Shown here: in pieces, positions 3 to 20,501 of the stretch
Layout of the letters: every line of letters begins with the position of its first letter
Numbering within the stretch: the first letter of the stretch is position 1
Source: Paenibacillus sp. KS-LC4
GTDB taxonomy: Bacteria; Bacillota; Bacilli; Paenibacillales; Paenibacillaceae
Length of the DNA stretch: 64,000 nucleotides
NCBI RefSeq assembly: GCF_036894955.1
Contig: NZ_CP145905.1
Coordinates: forward strand, 4,482,501 to 4,546,500
Direction: 5' to 3'
Made by a program: the position numbers and the translations under genes
The notes under the pieces: model-generated
Seen by the model: the letters and a program-made list of their open reading frames with translations, nothing else
The model's database searches: none
Told to the model about the DNA's origin: nothing

Positions 3-1115
3 GCTGCCGAAGGGCTTGCCATTCGAGCACGCGGCTCAGGACTCAGATTATTCTGGTATGTAAACCTAATGTGTTTTCTAATGACGCTATTTTTCAACAA
101 TGACGGCAGCATTCTTATTACAACCCCGATTTTGCTCATTATGTTGCATCATATGGGACTAAAAAATCACCAAAAAATTCCATACCTACTTTCAGGAGCT
201 TTAATTGCTACCGCCTCCAGCGCCCCCATCGGGGTAAGCAATATTGTAAATCTGATCGCGCTGAAAATCGTCGGCATGGATTTGTACATGCATACCGTCA
301 TGATGTTTATCCCCGCTACAATTGGTCTGCTGCTGCTCAGCCTGCTGCTATTCTTCTACTTTTACCATCAGCTTCCCCGGCAAGTCCCCCATTCGATTTC
401 AATTGTCCCTATTCAATCTGGCTACCATCCTCTACTCACGCCTAACGGAAGCAAGCCCGCATCTCCCAAATTCAGCAGCCGCTTTATGAAATTAATTCTG
501 CTTTTTGTCTTTTCTGTCCGGCTAAGCTTATTTGCTGCCTCCTATTTGCATATCCCCGTTGAGTGGGTCGCTGTTTTCGGCTCCTTGCTGCTCCTTAGTT
601 GGCGCTGGGCTTACTTGAAAATGCCGCCGAACGACATTTTGCGTAAAATTCCGTGGCATATCCTCATTTTCGCCTTCGCCATGTATATCATTATTTACGG
701 CCTGCACAATATTGGTCTGACGCAATTACTCGTGCAGGTATTCGAGCCGCTTGTCATGGGGAGCCTGATGAATGCAAGCATTTTAATCGGAGGGCTTGTG
801 TCCGCCATGTCTACACTCGTCAACAATCACCCCGCGCTCATGATCGGCACGATCACCCTCACCGAAATGAACCTCGATCCGCTTTCACTCAAAATCGCCT
901 ACCTCGCCAGCGTCATTGGGAGCGATATAGGCTCACTCCTGTTACCAATAGGCACGCTAGCCTCTCTCATTTGGATAAATCTTGTTCAGAGAGCCAAAAT
1001 AAAAATCAATTGGAAGGATTATGTCAAAGTGACGATTGTCGTCATTCCGCCTGTTCTGCTGTTTACTCTCGCTCTTCTTGCTTTATGGGTTGGCTGGATC
1101 TTCCCTTCGCATTAG
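3..1115 (+). CDS. ArsB/NhaD-type ion transporter, 5' end outside window
   Basis: This is the C-terminal part of a polytopic carrier of the ion transporter superfamily (ArsB/CitM/NhaD type). The frame is open back to base 3 without a stop, and residues upstream of the first ATG (base 69) still read like the family, so the true start lies before the window. The segment NNDGSILITTP matches the family's conserved helix-break motif (NDAAVLLLTP-like), and NNHPALMIGT matches the second repeat's equivalent. At least seven hydrophobic segments can be seen. The substrate (arsenite, Na+/H+ or a carboxylate) cannot be told from this part. A weak hairpin follows the stop codon. Confidence 0.8.
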   Translation, partial: AAEGLAIRARGSGLRLFWYVNLMCFLMTLFFNNDGSILITTPILLIMLHHMGLKNHQKIPYLLSGALIATASSAPIGVSNIVNLIALKIVGMDLYMHTVMMFIPATIGLLLLSLLLFFYFYHQLPRQVPHSISIVPIQSGYHPLLTPNGSKPASPKFSSRFMKLILLFVFSVRLSLFAASYLHIPVEWVAVFGSLLLLSWRWAYLKMPPNDILRKIPWHILIFAFAMYIIIYGLHNIGLTQLLVQVFEPLVMGSLMNASILIGGLVSAMSTLVNNHPALMIGTITLTEMNLDPLSLKIAYLASVIGSDIGSLLLPIGTLASLIWINLVQRAKIKINWKDYVKVTIVVIPPVLLFTLALLALWVGWIFPSH

Positions 1116-1269: not shown

Positions 1270-1298
1270 TTTACAAATGAGCCATTAAGGTTTAATAT
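1270..1298 (+). promoter_or_regulatory. Sigma-A promoter for riboswitch transcript
   Basis: TTTACA at 1270-1275 and TAATAT at 1293-1298 are 17 bp apart, about 35 bp before the riboswitch P1 stem. The position fits a promoter for the riboswitch and the gene at 1496. Confidence 0.6.
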
Positions 1299-1333
1299 AT
1301 ATCCCTAGCCGAATTCTGGCACTCTATTATTAA

Positions 1334-1477
1334 TCGCTTAATTTTTCAATTGAAAAAGCGGGGGAACCAACGACGTGATTGAAGCGACAGCTTAAATCGC
1401 AAGGGGTGAATCCGGTGCGTTCGCGCACTGGTAGGGCAGCTCTCTGGCCCGAATCCGACAGCTAACTCCGTAAGCGA
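1334..1477 (+). promoter_or_regulatory. c-di-AMP riboswitch (ydaO-yuaA class)
   Basis: The core motifs of the ydaO class appear in order: GGGGGAACCAACG, then AAGGGGTGAATCCGG, a hairpin CCGGTGCG-TTCG-CGCACTGG, GTAGGGCAGC with GGCCCG, and the signature CCGACAGCTAACTCCG. P1 is TCGCTTA (1334-1340) with TAAGCGA (1471-1477). The class binds cyclic di-AMP and usually controls osmolyte or K+ transport and cell-wall genes. No intrinsic terminator lies between the aptamer and the start codon. The Shine-Dalgarno GAGGAGAG (1482-1489) follows five bases after P1. ACTCC (1465-1469), part of the conserved aptamer, and CTCTC (1440-1444) could both pair with it, so control may be translational (inference). 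Confidence 0.95.
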
Positions 1478-1495
1478 ACGTGAGGAGAGATGAAT

Positions 1496-1915
1496 ATGAT
1501 TGTCCTTCATGCGCCGGACGCTCCGCCTAAGGCGAAGCACGCAATGAAGCTTAAGGTCAAGCGCATTGAGCTGTTTGTTATTCCAGCACTCAATGTAGAC
1601 GCCGCTGGAAACCGGGCCTGCTTGCGGGTAACGACGGACAAAGGCATTGGCTTTGGCGAAACTTTTGTAGACGAAATGGAACGTCCTAACGATTGGGGTC
1701 TGTGGTGCAGCGCGCTGAGCAGCTTTATCGGCACCTTGTCCATAACAGGCCGTTCGCTTCGGGGCGAGCAAGCGGATCAGCACAGTGTGTACAACCTGTT
1801 CGATCACGCCATTCACCATCTCAAACAGTGGACGGCAGAAATTGAACCGGATGACAGCACCTCCGAGGAGCCTATTTTACTTAGCCGCTCGTTATTCTAT
1901 CTTTCTATTTTTTAA
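1496..1915 (+). CDS. Small protein of unknown function under c-di-AMP riboswitch
   Basis: A 139-residue protein that I cannot assign with confidence. Residues about 17-55 (MKLKVKRIELFVIPAL through RVTTDKGIGFGETFV) resemble the capping-domain start of the enolase/mandelate-racemase superfamily, but the barrel is absent and the protein is about a third of that family's length. It has no signal peptide or membrane segment. The C-terminal half is rich in His and acidic residues and ends in a short hydrophobic tail. ATG 1496 is chosen over ATG 1490 because it lies 6 nt from GAGGAGAG, whereas 1490 directly abuts it. It is monocistronic, with a strong terminator after it. The riboswitch is the only functional hint: potassium, osmotic or cell-wall physiology. 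Confidence 0.75.
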   Translation: MIVLHAPDAPPKAKHAMKLKVKRIELFVIPALNVDAAGNRACLRVTTDKGIGFGETFVDEMERPNDWGLWCSALSSFIGTLSITGRSLRGEQADQHSVYNLFDHAIHHLKQWTAEIEPDDSTSEEPILLSRSLFYLSIF

Positions 1916-1938: not shown

Positions 1939-1988
1939 AAAAGAACCTTTCCCACCATCATTCAGCTGACGGGAAAGGTTCTTTTTTA
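1939..1988 (+). terminator. Intrinsic terminator
   Basis: AAGAACCTTTCCC pairs perfectly with GGGAAAGGTTCTT, followed by TTTTTT. Its position between convergent genes, with a shorter T-run on the other strand, suggests it may also serve the beta-mannosidase operon. Confidence 0.9.
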
Positions 1989-2014: not shown

Positions 2015-4570
2015 TCAAATAAAATCCGTCATCGAATGGACGGCAAGCTCGCCCGGCGATGCAGCAATGAAAGCCCGATCTCCTTGCGGATTGCGCGCAT
2101 AAAACGTAATCGTACGCGGTTCATTCGGCAGTAAATCGAAATAATTGTCACTGAAAATACCCTCGATGGTCGCGGAAAGTCGAACCTGCTTCGCCAGCGT
2201 ATTCGTCTCCAGAATAAAGGCCGTACCGCCGCTTCCTTCAATCTCACTTACCTTAATAACAGGAGCTATAAGTTCAAGCTCCTTCATCGGCCTGAAATAA
2301 TGCTCCTTTTCCTCCACAAGCAGTCCATCCTGTCTAAGCTTGGCAGCAAGAACAACTGAGCCTAGCTCAATATCTTCTGGAAGCAGCGCCTTCAGCTCAA
2401 TGGAGCAGGCCATATGACCCTTATTCGGCTGAAGCGATATGGGAACAGCAAACTTCTTCAGCACCTCGCCTGTGAAGGACCGCAGCTCTAGCCCAAGCTC
2501 GCCGATGAAGGGCTCATTTCGATCTGACAATACATAGCAATCGACACAGCTGCCGCTCGTATCATCGAAGGATACTAGCATGTCACGGAAGCTGCGCCCC
2601 GCATAATATTGCAGCGCCTTCCAGCGCCCATAATAGTCCATTCCCGCCCATGAGGCAACGGGCCAGCAATCGTTCATTTGCCAATATAACGTCCCCATGC
2701 AAAACGGCTTTTTCCGCCTATGAGCCTCAATCGCCGTCTTCATCGCTTCTGCCTGTAGCACCTGGCTCAAATACAGAAATGCCGAAAAATCCTTCGGCTG
2801 ACGTAAATACATCTCCATATATTCCTTGATCAGTTGGTTGCCGCGTGCGTTTTTCTGATGCGCCAGCATCACCTCCGATTCAATCGCCATATCCGCCTCC
2901 ACCGCATATTGCTGCACCGTTTGCAGCTCAGGGAAGGATTGAAAGCCGTATTCGCTCATAAAGCGCCCTACATGGACGTTATATTTTTCAAAAGGCTCTA
3001 TGTTATGCCAAACGCCCCAGTAGTGTATATCACCGCTCCTCGACAAGTTGAAAGCATGCTGCTCCTTGTCTCCCGTCAGCCCGCGCATCGGCGATGAAGG
3101 CCAATACGCAATACCATTGCCAAGCCCGGCGACCGCCTGCGGCAAAATCCGATGGAATATCGCCTCATAATCGGCCCACAGCCGCTCACGCTGCTCTGGC
3201 GTGTAATCGCGTTTCCAGCCCCAGCCCATATTTTCATCATAATGCGACCAGGCTGTGTCGATTTCGTTGTTGCCGCACCATAAGGCGATACAGGGGTGAT
3301 TGCGCAGACGCCGAACGTTTTCCTCCGCTTCCAGACGGACATTTTCCAGAAATGCCTCATCTCCGGGATACATGCTGCAAGCGAACATGAAATCCTGCCA
3401 GACGAGCAAGCCGTGCTCATCACAAAGCTCATAAAACGCATCCGCTTCATAAATGCCGCCACCCCAAATACGGAGCATATTCATATTCGATTGCACAGCA
3501 CTCACAATTTCATGACGGTAGCGCTCATACGTCACATCAGGCAGAAAGCTGTCGTTTGGAATATGATTCGCGCCTTTAGCGAATACCGGAACGCCGTTTA
3601 GCTCGATATAAAAAGCATGACCCTGCTCGTCTTGATCGGTTACCAGCCTCACTGCCCGCAAACCCGTCGTTACGCTGCGACTGCTCACAAGCTGCTCGAC
3701 TCCATCCTTTGCTTGCACAAGCCGTGCTTCAAAATGATAGAGCTCCGGCTTGCCTAGGCCTCGGCACCACCAAAGCCGCGGCTCGGTAATAGATGCCGTC
3801 AGCTCCACCGACTGCACCCCCGCGTTCAGCTTAACCTGCTGCTCCCAGCGTCTGCCGTCTGCCTCGACCCGTACCAGCCCTTGCCAAGCCCGCTCGCATT
3901 CGACCTCTGCAACTATTTTGAGAGCCGCTTGAGCGGACGTTATTTTCTGCTGCTCGATATATAGATCGGTCAGCCGTACTTCCGACCAGGCAACGAGCTT
4001 AACCTCCCTCCAAATACCGCTTGTCACAAAGCGCGGACCCCAGTCCCAGCCATAATGATACGGAGCCTTGCGGGCAAATACACTAAGCTTCTTATCGCCA
4101 AGTCCACCCAGCTCTGACTGATCATTCGTCGCTGGAAGCGAGTAGCCCAGCTTCTCAAGCTTTGGCAAATCCTCGTTTATAGGCGAACGAAATTTGACGG
4201 TTACCTCATTGCCTTCCAGCTTTAATAGCGGCTTAACATTGATTTTCCAGCTGCGGAACATATTGTCCGCCGACAGCATATGCTTGCCATTTACGTACAC
4301 ATCAGCATACGTATCTAGTCCTGTAAATACCAGCTCAAGCTGTGCGTGTGCAAGCATATCCGGCGTCACGCCGAACGTTGCCCGATACTCCCAATCCTGC
4401 TTGTCAATCCACTGCAATCCATGCTCATTCGTCCCGTAAAACGGATGGCCTATTTTCTCCTGCCGCAACAGATCTAAATGGACGTTTCCCGGCACTTTCG
4501 CTGGCAGCCAATCCTTCTCCCCGCAAGCTCTAAAGCTCCAATCACCTAAAATTATATTCGCTTCGTTCAT
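2015..4570 (-). CDS. Beta-mannosidase, GH2 family (copy 2)
   Basis: A cytoplasmic glycoside hydrolase (851 aa) expected to release mannose from the non-reducing end of beta-mannosides. It shows the GH2 order: jelly-roll sugar-binding domain (PGNVHLDLL near residue 30), Ig-like domain, then TIM barrel. The acid/base Glu is in WCGNNEID (Glu about 436) and the nucleophile Glu in MSEYGFQSFPE (about 540). There is no signal peptide, so the substrate must be imported. ATG 4570 has GGAGG five bases upstream; an in-frame TTG four codons earlier lacks a site. It is the last gene of the transporter operon, 37 bp after its paralogue, and the two are clearly diverged. Confidence 0.93.
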   Translation of the reverse strand: MNEANIILGDWSFRACGEKDWLPAKVPGNVHLDLLRQEKIGHPFYGTNEHGLQWIDKQDWEYRATFGVTPDMLAHAQLELVFTGLDTYADVYVNGKHMLSADNMFRSWKINVKPLLKLEGNEVTVKFRSPINEDLPKLEKLGYSLPATNDQSELGGLGDKKLSVFARKAPYHYGWDWGPRFVTSGIWREVKLVAWSEVRLTDLYIEQQKITSAQAALKIVAEVECERAWQGLVRVEADGRRWEQQVKLNAGVQSVELTASITEPRLWWCRGLGKPELYHFEARLVQAKDGVEQLVSSRSVTTGLRAVRLVTDQDEQGHAFYIELNGVPVFAKGANHIPNDSFLPDVTYERYRHEIVSAVQSNMNMLRIWGGGIYEADAFYELCDEHGLLVWQDFMFACSMYPGDEAFLENVRLEAEENVRRLRNHPCIALWCGNNEIDTAWSHYDENMGWGWKRDYTPEQRERLWADYEAIFHRILPQAVAGLGNGIAYWPSSPMRGLTGDKEQHAFNLSRSGDIHYWGVWHNIEPFEKYNVHVGRFMSEYGFQSFPELQTVQQYAVEADMAIESEVMLAHQKNARGNQLIKEYMEMYLRQPKDFSAFLYLSQVLQAEAMKTAIEAHRRKKPFCMGTLYWQMNDCWPVASWAGMDYYGRWKALQYYAGRSFRDMLVSFDDTSGSCVDCYVLSDRNEPFIGELGLELRSFTGEVLKKFAVPISLQPNKGHMACSIELKALLPEDIELGSVVLAAKLRQDGLLVEEKEHYFRPMKELELIAPVIKVSEIEGSGGTAFILETNTLAKQVRLSATIEGIFSDNYFDLLPNEPRTITFYARNPQGDRAFIAASPGELAVHSMTDFI

Positions 4571-4607
4571 CGTGTCCTCCAAAATCGTGATAGTAGATTA
4601 GAATAGA

Positions 4608-7148
4608 TTAGTTAAAATGTATGTCGGCCTTGTCAGCATTGAGAGCGGACACTTCCAGCGTCTCAGATCGCAGAGGCTGCCCGTCTGCTTGCTGCAAGGT
4701 GACCGTAACCAGTTCACCCGGCAGCAGGTCAAAATAGTTATCGCTGAAGCGAACGTTGCCCTGCTTCACAGTGATTTTCACCAGACGCGCAACACCGCCC
4801 GAAGCCACGATTGTAATCGTCTGCTCCTGCTCATTAAACGTCGCTGCAAGGGTGCTGTTCGGCAGGCTGAGCTCCCGATGATCACGTAAATAATAATAAT
4901 TGTCCGGCGCGTCCAACAAAGGAGCGGACAGCTTCACAATGACCTGCTCTGGCGCAGCATCGCCTAGCACTTCTGCCTCTGCAAGCTCGACCAATTGAAT
5001 TGCCGTATTTGGCGGCAGCTTGACGTCAAAGCTCTGCTCATACACCAAGGCGCCATCAAGAGTAAAGCACTGGAACAGCACTTCGCCCTCATGCGCTGAC
5101 AGCCGGTCATTAACAGCCCATACGCAGAGCGGCTGCCCTGGCTCATAATCGAGCGACAGCAGGAGCGGATGGTAAAACTTTTTCGCATAATAAAAAGAAG
5201 CCTTCGGCAGCAGCTCATAATCAATCAGCGACCAGCTCGTGCCTGGCCAGCTGTCATTATGCTGCCAGACGAGCGCTCCGCTCGTGCGATGCTTATTGCG
5301 CCTGTAATGCTCAATGCCATATTTTAAGCCCTCCGCCTGCGTGAGCATGGAGAAGTTCATATATTCTTCGATATTTTGCGGAATGCCTGTATAACCTTCC
5401 ATGAGCAAAATGCCCTTCTGGTGGTTCGTATCCTTGTTGCGATGCGCCAGCTCTACGCTGCCCCAATAAAATTCGCCTTCCGGGATATAGCGCTCCAGCG
5501 TATAGCGGTTCGCCGAGGCGTGCATGCCGAACTCGCTGCTGAACAGGGTGAAATCCTTTTTATAATTTTTGAACGTGACGCCTTCAATACTGTAATCAAG
5601 CAGCGGCGCCTCGCCGAATTTGCGCGGGTACACCGAGCCATGCCATACTTGCCAATTGTGACGGTCACCGACATCAGGATCGTTGGCATCATTGCCGCCA
5701 TAAGGCGACGAAGGCCAATACGGCCTGCTGCTGTCATATTGCTCCAGCACCTCCGGCAGCAGCTCATGGTAGATGCTCTCCCCATAGAAGGGACAAGTAA
5801 TATCCCCGCCAGCCGACTTCATATCATACAGCCAGTCAATTTCGTTGTTGCCGCACCATAAGGCAAGCGACGGATGATTGCGCAGGCGCTTCACATTATC
5901 AATCGCTTCCTGCCTCACATTTTCCATAAAATTACGATTGAAATCGGGGAATAGTGCGTTTGCAAAGGCAAAATCCTGCCAGACGAGCACACCAAGACGA
6001 TCGCATTCCTCGTAAAAAACATCCTTCTCATAAATGCCGCCAGCCCAAATGCGCAGCATATTCATATTGGAATCGACAGCCAGCTCGATGAGATCGGTAT
6101 AACGCTTGTCCTTCACCGCTCCAATAAAGCTGTCTGCCGGAATCCAGTTGGAGCCTTTAGCGAACAGCTTGACTCCGTTCAGCAGGAAGGCAAAGGCGGG
6201 CTTTCCAGCCTTATCCTCCAGCTGCAGCTCAATTGTTCGAATGCCGCAGCGCTTGCGATAGCTGTCAACCTGCTCGCCAGCCGCAAGCAGCTGCACCTCA
6301 AGCTCATACAAATACGGCTCGCCAAGATCATGCGACCACCATAGCTGCGGTTGCTTTACGACCAGTTCCGCCGCCGTCTCGCGTCCGCCTTTTACGGAAA
6401 TCGCCGCAGATGCCGCGACCTCGCCCTCCCTCGTAAACAGCTTGATTTCAGCAGTCAGCTGCGCCTGCTTATGATAGGCAACCGCATCAACGGCTACTCT
6501 CAAGGCTGCTGCTTCCTTGCCAGCCGATAACGTTTGAACGAATACACTGTCGAGCTTAGCGACACGTCTGCGCTCCAGACGAACGCCGCCCCAAATGCCG
6601 ACGGTCACCATTCGCGGTCCCCAGTCCCAGCCGAAGTTCATCGCAGCCTTGCGCAGCCATGGACGTTCCTTCGTATAGGAGGACCACTGGAATTGCTCCT
6701 TATCCTGATGATGCAAATGCAGCGGGTCAAAGCGGACAGCAATCGCATTTTTGCCCGGACGCATGACCCTCGTCACATCAAAAACATAAATGCGGTGCAT
6801 ATTTTCCGCTGTTCCGATTTCCAGTCCATTGACGAAGATCGTCGCAAATGTGTCCAGCCCTTCAAAAATCAGCTCATGCCGCTCCCCGTGACCGTCATGC
6901 CGCTCATGAATCTCATAGTCGAACTGCGCTCGATACCACCACTCCTTCTGCTCGATCCAGCGGCATTTGATGTCGTTATGCCCAAAATAGGGATGCTCAA
7001 TAATGCGCCGATCAATCAGTGTGGAATGCACATCGCCGGGAACGTTCGCCGTCATCCAAAAACGGTCGTCAAGTCCTGGTGCCGCTACCTGAAGAGGAGG
7101 CTTCTCCCCTACCTCAAAATGCTGCAATCGCCAGTCTGTTATTTTCAT
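4608..7148 (-). CDS. Beta-mannosidase, GH2 family (copy 1)
   Basis: A second GH2 beta-mannosidase, about 846 aa and cytoplasmic. It shares the VPGDVHSTL entry motif, the HPYFGHNDI segment, acid/base WCGNNEIDW (Glu about 436) and nucleophile SSEFGMHAS (Glu about 539). Most residues outside these motifs differ from copy 2, so the pair is not a recent duplication; different linkage or chain-length preference is likely (inference). ATG 7148 has GGAGG 11 bases upstream. It follows the solute-binding protein gene after a hairpin, which suggests differential expression within one transcript. Confidence 0.93.
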   Translation of the reverse strand: MKITDWRLQHFEVGEKPPLQVAAPGLDDRFWMTANVPGDVHSTLIDRRIIEHPYFGHNDIKCRWIEQKEWWYRAQFDYEIHERHDGHGERHELIFEGLDTFATIFVNGLEIGTAENMHRIYVFDVTRVMRPGKNAIAVRFDPLHLHHQDKEQFQWSSYTKERPWLRKAAMNFGWDWGPRMVTVGIWGGVRLERRRVAKLDSVFVQTLSAGKEAAALRVAVDAVAYHKQAQLTAEIKLFTREGEVAASAAISVKGGRETAAELVVKQPQLWWSHDLGEPYLYELEVQLLAAGEQVDSYRKRCGIRTIELQLEDKAGKPAFAFLLNGVKLFAKGSNWIPADSFIGAVKDKRYTDLIELAVDSNMNMLRIWAGGIYEKDVFYEECDRLGVLVWQDFAFANALFPDFNRNFMENVRQEAIDNVKRLRNHPSLALWCGNNEIDWLYDMKSAGGDITCPFYGESIYHELLPEVLEQYDSSRPYWPSSPYGGNDANDPDVGDRHNWQVWHGSVYPRKFGEAPLLDYSIEGVTFKNYKKDFTLFSSEFGMHASANRYTLERYIPEGEFYWGSVELAHRNKDTNHQKGILLMEGYTGIPQNIEEYMNFSMLTQAEGLKYGIEHYRRNKHRTSGALVWQHNDSWPGTSWSLIDYELLPKASFYYAKKFYHPLLLSLDYEPGQPLCVWAVNDRLSAHEGEVLFQCFTLDGALVYEQSFDVKLPPNTAIQLVELAEAEVLGDAAPEQVIVKLSAPLLDAPDNYYYLRDHRELSLPNSTLAATFNEQEQTITIVASGGVARLVKITVKQGNVRFSDNYFDLLPGELVTVTLQQADGQPLRSETLEVSALNADKADIHFN

Positions 7149-7207
7149 AGGGCTCTCATCCTCCAATTTATCTCTAGCTGTATGTTGAAAAAAATACGTG
7201 AAACGCG

Positions 7208-20122: not shown

Positions 20123-20220
20123 ATGTGTACGCAGAAATAGACGGTTGCGCCAGCAAACAGACTGGTAGCAATCGCTTTCGTTCGTACACCTATCCTTTCC
20201 GCGAAGGCACTGTGGTGCTG

Positions 20221-20402
20221 GAACGAGGTAGGTCTCCTGGCTAGCAGATCATCATTTTCCTTCGTCTTCCCCGGCTGCCCTTAAGCATGGCCAAGTGACT
20301 CCTGCTGGTGAAGGAAAACTCCCTGATTACAGTGGCGGGACCGCTCGGGATTTGCACCCGATTCCCTGTTACCCTTTGACGTGCGCAAAGGCACCTCGTT
20401 CC
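20221..20402 (-). promoter_or_regulatory. Cobalamin riboswitch
   Basis: Read on the minus strand: P1 GGAACGAGGT with ACCTCGTTCC, the core AGGGAATCGGGTGCAAATCC, the GCGGTCCCGCCACTGTAA segment, and the 3' B12 box GCCAGGAGACCT. The class binds adenosylcobalamin and normally switches off downstream genes. Here it precedes cbiMNQO, so cobalt import should fall when B12 is plentiful. Confidence 0.96.
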
Positions 20403-20501
20403 ATGTCAATCCTCTTTATCATTCATTGGTCATTTTGTAGTTTGATCTTATCACAAAAGATTCAGGCTGTCCCCTATAAATGTAAATGGCCGAAATTGCT
20501 A

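Follow-up and report, generated by a model that had tools for sequence, protein, structure and literature searches.

We analyzed a 64,000-nucleotide stretch of the Paenibacillus sp. KS-LC4 genome (contig NZ_CP145905.1, positions 4,482,501 to 4,546,500; hereafter the window), in which a cyclic di-AMP (c-di-AMP) riboswitch precedes a gene encoding an uncharacterized 139-residue protein. Overall, we consider it probable, with real room for doubt, that this gene encodes the capping domain of an enolase-superfamily enzyme stripped of its barrel, which is kept under riboswitch control and serves as a non-catalytic binding or adaptor protein when c-di-AMP is low. The riboswitch belongs to a known class; the gene under its control would be a barrel-less branch, new here, of an enzyme superfamily that is itself known. 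Coordinates of the features at the locus are collected in Table 1. Below, labels beginning with L, G and f denote loci or their genes, genomes and families, respectively.

Sequence databases were silent on the window protein: it had no Pfam match above cut-off (the gathering score of PF02746, MR_MLE_N, was likewise not reached), no NCBIfam match and no match among PDB sequences. A weak match to PF01812 (E 0.19) was put down to chance, and a profile (A2) searched against PDB sequences returned one unrelated match only (E 1.4). An earlier note, made by a model from the DNA letters, had advised searching both sequence and structure databases; while the former came back empty, an AlphaFold2 model followed by a fold search recovered the N-terminal capping-domain fold of enolases. 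This comparison consisted of two VIA runs covering the top-ranked Foldseek chains, so folds missed by Foldseek could not appear. The fold alignment also shows the enolase chain's C-terminal helix and strand to be retained; it thus seems from the model that a C-terminal piece of the chain was kept as well, which the earlier note had not foreseen. The (beta/alpha) barrel domain is absent from the 139-residue chain according to the alignment series, and enolase-type catalysis is impossible for the protein because the barrel is missing. Relative to the mandelate racemase/muconate lactonizing enzyme group (PF02746 and PF13378), the window protein shares the cap fold, the C-terminal helix and strand and a chain of sequence similarity running through partial forms, but it lacks the barrel that carries the KxK, D, E and D positions in full-length relatives and does not reach PF02746.

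The chain of similarity can be followed from small to full-length proteins. A profile of 12 members from the genus matches the N-terminal domain of the full-length proteins L105 and L106 at 27.7 and 25.4 bits, and L105 passes PF13378 (34.5 over 29.4 bits) though not PF02746 (18.8 under 22). A wider profile (A3), built without partial or full-length forms, has matches in 60 of the 104 genomes of f6, a second family of the order, and these matches include some partial and full-length forms; loci were returned for the 30 best-scoring places. Among the 12 sequences scored with A3, partial forms obtained 61-71 bits and full-length forms 30-47 bits. The partial forms L168, L169, L171 and L172 (251-290 residues) retain the N-terminal domain, a late barrel piece and the C-terminal tail. 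For example, L171 aligns with L105 at residues 5-117/11-123 and 157-211/270-324, and the stretch in between, which holds the KxK, D, E and D residues of L105 (taken here as the catalytic lysine and the metal ligands), is missing or unalignable. L172, the gene of locus L161, lies directly behind an RF00379 riboswitch (99.6 bits) and passes PF02746 (25.9 over 22). At the small end, L046 shares 55% identity with L171 across 108 residues, and the L046 tail aligns with the end of the partial forms. A broken copy in genome G037 (family f2), behind RF00379 and beside kdpA, consists of an N-terminal-domain remnant followed by a barrel-end remnant and looks, from its sequence, as if the ancestor at that place was longer; a terminator-like hairpin and the RF00379 site precede it (L116, about 4400-5400). 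The full-length members L165-L167 showed neither a riboswitch core nor kdpA within the 9-10 kb fetched. Homology to the enolase-superfamily N-terminus, suggested earlier as a faint likeness, is supported by this fold and sequence evidence. The 139-residue protein would then be a capping domain that lost its whole catalytic barrel, with partial-barrel forms surviving in relatives. To our knowledge, barrel loss with the cap retained is undescribed for the enolase superfamily. By eye, many barrel-less proteins of f6 (L133-L160) share a cysteine motif, FDC ... [DE]C.CG, ahead of the second strand; it may be a site for metal binding or redox chemistry.

We next consider conservation. When 60 genomes were searched with the window protein, 30 matched; these are 30 of the 37 genomes of the window's genus, against 0 of the 23 from elsewhere, and none of the 39 matched places contains an internal stop. 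Apart from the window's own locus, RF00379 lies directly upstream on the same strand at 29 of 29 loci, each from a different genome (nine weaker second copies had no locus). Among named genomes, taken as found, there are 35 loci in 33 genomes (two genomes have two loci each), all titled Paenibacillus except two Bacillus sp.; the nearest relative, in P. algorifonticola, is 93% identical. The aptamer core stands just upstream at 35 of these 35 loci, as judged by a pattern search that recovered 44 of 44 Rfam sites in the genus loci and no extra ones. Broader searches found the gene in 4 of 398 genomes phylum-wide, all in the window's own family, and in 21 of 398 class-wide. Several genomes carry tandem copies. 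The first copy lacks the core by pattern in L065 (9310-9735), L066, L067, L072 (9327-9749), L081 (9317-9748) and L082, with the second copy retaining it in L065, L072 and L081; both paralogues have a core in L064 and L069.

The homologues are of similar length and share the same C-terminal tail throughout, and dN/dS across 13 pairs ranged from 0.05 to 0.18, with dS saturated in one pair. Judged from these comparisons, the gene frame is conserved and under purifying selection. This bears on the possibility that the gene is a functionless, decaying fragment of a dead enzyme gene, a circumstance the earlier note had named as refuting its proposal. The gene does appear to derive from a longer enzyme by barrel loss, and real decay does occur among relatives, as in the broken G037 copy and a G082 copy with six stops. 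Decay of the window gene, however, is ruled out by the dN/dS values, and the intact frames in 39 places, the constant length and tail and the retained riboswitch also speak against it. Already contradicted in the window's genus, this explanation is hardly credible.

The riboswitch itself is unambiguous. Window positions 1325-1491 on the forward strand match RF00379 over the full model (1-134) with an E-value of 1.2e-20, at a score far above the gathering score of 38, in keeping with the near-textbook aptamer described from the letters. The coding start is less straightforward, since an alternative ATG at 1490 would give an open reading frame (ORF) of 141 residues (1490-1915). The GGAG motif starts 12 nt before ATG1496 and 6 nt before ATG1490. 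In the other readable leaders (49 of 53 were readable), it starts 8-16 nt before the start codon, except in L002 and L003 (6 nt), near relatives that share both ATGs and for which the distance was taken from the first. The spacing of 12 nt fits the range of the other leaders, and the 139-residue start is therefore the likelier one.

The aptamer reaches into the Shine-Dalgarno sequence, and no space is left for a terminator between aptamer and gene. Unlike terminator-type RF00379 leaders, the window leader has no terminator before the gene, and its hairpin loop may instead pair with the Shine-Dalgarno sequence. At least six contiguous loop/Shine-Dalgarno pairs are possible in 26 of 29 listed leaders (28 distinct, from the 49 readable ones with repeated leaders omitted), compared with 22% of shuffled loops. 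A minimum-free-energy fold computed for the entire leader (z -1.48) did not enter into this assessment. This pairing suggests translational OFF control, in which c-di-AMP binding would let the loop pair with the Shine-Dalgarno sequence and stop translation. A translational c-di-AMP riboswitch with a hypothesized CTCC/GGAG loop/Shine-Dalgarno pseudoknot is proposed for Corynebacterium glutamicum nlpC (PMC9960051), and OFF logic is described for kdpFABC of Bacillus thuringiensis, transcribed on potassium shortage, when c-di-AMP falls (PMC6488665). Given the proposed OFF pairing in the window and a fall in c-di-AMP during potassium shortage, the protein would be made at low c-di-AMP, as in potassium shortage. 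Members of f6 appear to use another platform: a terminator-like hairpin is found instead in 24 of 26 scored leaders (27 were given, with starts picked by script and no shuffled control). At 27 of the 30 returned f6 loci, the aptamer lies on the gene's strand no more than 700 nt upstream (26 by pattern and L144 by Rfam, which was run on 20 of the 30); the exceptions are L149 (at the edge of a contig), L159 (no core by pattern) and L162 (aptamer about 1 kb up).

The genomic neighborhood of the relatives offers a context for this control. kdpA is present in the stretch at 12 of the 35 named-genome loci and at 10 of 17 loci of the set L116-L132, chosen partly for tandem riboswitches or odd members and so not an unbiased rate. 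In f6 it occurs in 12 of 20 mostly best-scoring stretches (10 of 12 with barrel-less, 2 of 5 with partial and 0 of 3 with full-length forms), and in the class set in 6 of 18, one of these (L200) being 5 kb away and cut. The class set covers 19 of the 21 class-wide places, omitting the window's own and G082, and comprises 18 members plus L202, which reads as an ordinary enzyme. By our arithmetic, a stretch of about 20 kb from a 6.5-Mb genome would contain kdpA by chance in roughly 0.3% of cases, a figure to be read with the relatedness of the genomes in mind. Most often the small gene and kdp are transcribed divergently, one riboswitch pointing at the former and one or two at the latter. L170 has the small gene placed between riboswitch and kdpA, and L181 has it upstream of kdpA in the same orientation. 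Many kdp operons open with a TrkA_N-like protein of about 132 residues (27 of 34 loci, by eye); two of these proteins were scanned, of which one passes PF02254 (26.9 over 23.8) and the other gave no match. This stand-alone TrkA_N (RCK_N-like) protein is small, single-domain and encoded by a separate gene at the same loci. In 15 of 18 class-set members this gene is no more than 4 kb from the small gene, and these include some in which no kdpA or riboswitch was found. TrkA_N-like-first kdp operons behind one or two riboswitches were also seen at L064-L067, L069, L072, L079, L081 and L082 and, in f6, at L173-L176 among others. The kdp neighborhood of the relatives points to potassium rather than the envelope as the context; neither the kdp nor the TrkA_N-like neighbors were foreseen by the earlier note.

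Several observations weigh against the reading of a barrel-less cap under riboswitch control in a potassium context. On the structural side, the Foldseek E-values are modest (best 6.2e-3 and 2.6e-3), unrelated folds turn up from ranks 18 and 21 in the two lists, and only one of three scanned partial forms passes PF02746 (L171 scored 17.0 bits and L169 had no match). As to the switch, the loop/Shine-Dalgarno pairing is broken in the near relative L003, and a test of GGAG pairing only was set aside as uninformative, since it admits 64% of shuffled loops along with 48 of 49 leaders. The association with RF00379 is also incomplete: in 12-kb stretches, the other-genus members L189, L190, L193 and L195-L200 have none, and L191, L192 and L194 carry it only on the neighboring gene's side. 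L098, L103 and L104 have no RF00379 upstream; beside the riboswitch-less member of L103, we observed group II intron matches at 760-845 and 2570-2740 on the reverse strand. Finally, the window genome has no KdpA and, at E 1e-8, no TrkA_N-like gene. Full-length KdpA is lacking in 11 of 30 genus carriers, the window genome included, and is present in 7 of 7 non-carriers; the TrkA_N-like gene is lacking in 16 of 30 carriers. KdpA and the TrkA_N-like protein are thus not obligatory partners of the small protein, since many genus carriers do without them.

These counts bear on a possible role in which the small protein would belong to the KdpFABC pump as a subunit or regulate it (or do the same for the TrkA_N-like protein), surviving elsewhere only as a relic. 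The placement of the gene divergent from or upstream of kdp in f1, f6 and f32, and of the broken copy likewise in f2, would suit such a role, as would its position next to the TrkA_N-like gene, seen also at loci with no kdpA found. A Kdp accessory protein should always accompany kdpFABC, and the carriers without KdpA or the TrkA_N-like gene lead us to reject the strict subunit reading. All seven non-carriers have KdpA without the small gene, and the window protein is under purifying selection and keeps its riboswitch; we regard the broader role as unlikely. While many relatives of the gene share an intergenic region or strand with a kdp operon behind RF00379, the window genome differs in lacking KdpA altogether.

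The small protein might alternatively be a c-di-AMP receptor itself, perhaps through its former barrel-facing surface, relaying or buffering the signal with the riboswitch as feedback. Its expression is tied to c-di-AMP riboswitches in two families and through two kinds of expression platform, and the gene persists in genomes that lack kdp or the TrkA_N-like gene, as a sensor acting by itself might. Yet the absence of any Pfam match above cut-off reveals no known receptor domain by that route, and many other-genus carriers show no riboswitch, so we judge a receptor function improbable. We prefer the binding or adaptor role: the protein would be a small non-catalytic component of the low-potassium/low-c-di-AMP response, an assignment drawn from the neighborhood of its relatives, ancestrally encoded near KdpFABC and the stand-alone TrkA_N-like protein and acting alone in this species. 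For a binding or adaptor role in the potassium or osmotic response in particular, we see the chances as roughly even. Slightly short of even, in our estimate, is the fuller scenario in which the whole TIM barrel was lost stepwise and the complete cap, with its N- and C-terminal pieces, became a new c-di-AMP/potassium effector, first near kdp and the TrkA_N-like gene and later independent.

The earlier proposal, a riboswitch serving a single small gene with its own promoter and terminator, agrees with what the locus shows: one small gene, a promoter-like site and a terminator (Table 1). Both hexamers of the promoter-like site are conserved in L002, L003 and L061, though the consensus scan found five such sites in 1.7 kb compared with 1.8 in shuffles. 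The A-run on the opposite side of the terminator would also suit the convergent ORF 2015-4582.

Table 1. Features at the riboswitch locus (window coordinates)
Feature	Position	Strand	Evidence
Promoter-like site TTTACA-17-TAATAT (sigma-70-like)	1270..1298	+	Consensus scan only; hexamers conserved
c-di-AMP (ydaO/yuaA-type) riboswitch aptamer, RF00379	1325..1491	+	Rfam, 93.2 bits
Hairpin loop CUCUCU, able to pair with Shine-Dalgarno	1440..1445	+	Six contiguous pairs with 1484-1489
Shine-Dalgarno GGAGAG, loop partner (putative translational expression platform)	1484..1489	+	Sequence; start distance as in relatives
Barrel-less enolase-superfamily capping-domain protein, 139 aa	1496..1915	+	Homologues, AlphaFold2 and fold search, size series, dN/dS
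Intrinsic terminator, 15-bp stem 1939-1953/1971-1985 and U-run	1939..1985	+	-22.8 kcal/mol, z -6.7

Elsewhere in the window, an ArsB/CitMHS-type transporter gene (69-1112, forward strand; PF02040, 129.5 bits) lies just upstream of the riboswitch gene, and two tandem ORFs of about 850 residues (2015-4582 and 4608-7166, reverse strand), resembling beta-mannosidase-type glycoside hydrolases, are convergent with it. A cobalamin riboswitch (RF00174, 123.6 bits) occupies 20210-20413 on the reverse strand. In a cluster of 20 loci including L062 (8673-9629, reverse strand), an HMGL-like aldolase gene (PF00682) runs divergently to the small gene; pyruvate carboxylase has an HMGL-like domain that is listed among c-di-AMP receptors (PMC7288161).

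Known targets of c-di-AMP riboswitches are mainly transporters and cell-wall hydrolases. The window genome has two further RF00379 sites, and from their translations only we take the genes behind them to be RpfB/YabE-like (L113) and NlpC/P60-like (L114). At the window site, the gene under control is uncharacterized. A partly narrow, licence-limited literature search found no recognized account of a free-standing enolase capping domain or of the riboswitch gene, which is weak evidence of absence. In a Paenibacillus transcriptome study, a listed RF00379 site precedes a cell-wall hydrolase (PMC5670726).

The present gene adds a conserved uncharacterized protein family to the list of c-di-AMP riboswitch targets. 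The evolutionary path from full enzyme through partial barrel to no barrel can be read in living genomes, and barrel loss with the cap kept provides a testable case of an enzyme domain turned signaling or adaptor protein. The family also offers a natural comparison, with one aptamer and one gene family combined with a terminator in some lineages and probably with Shine-Dalgarno masking in others.
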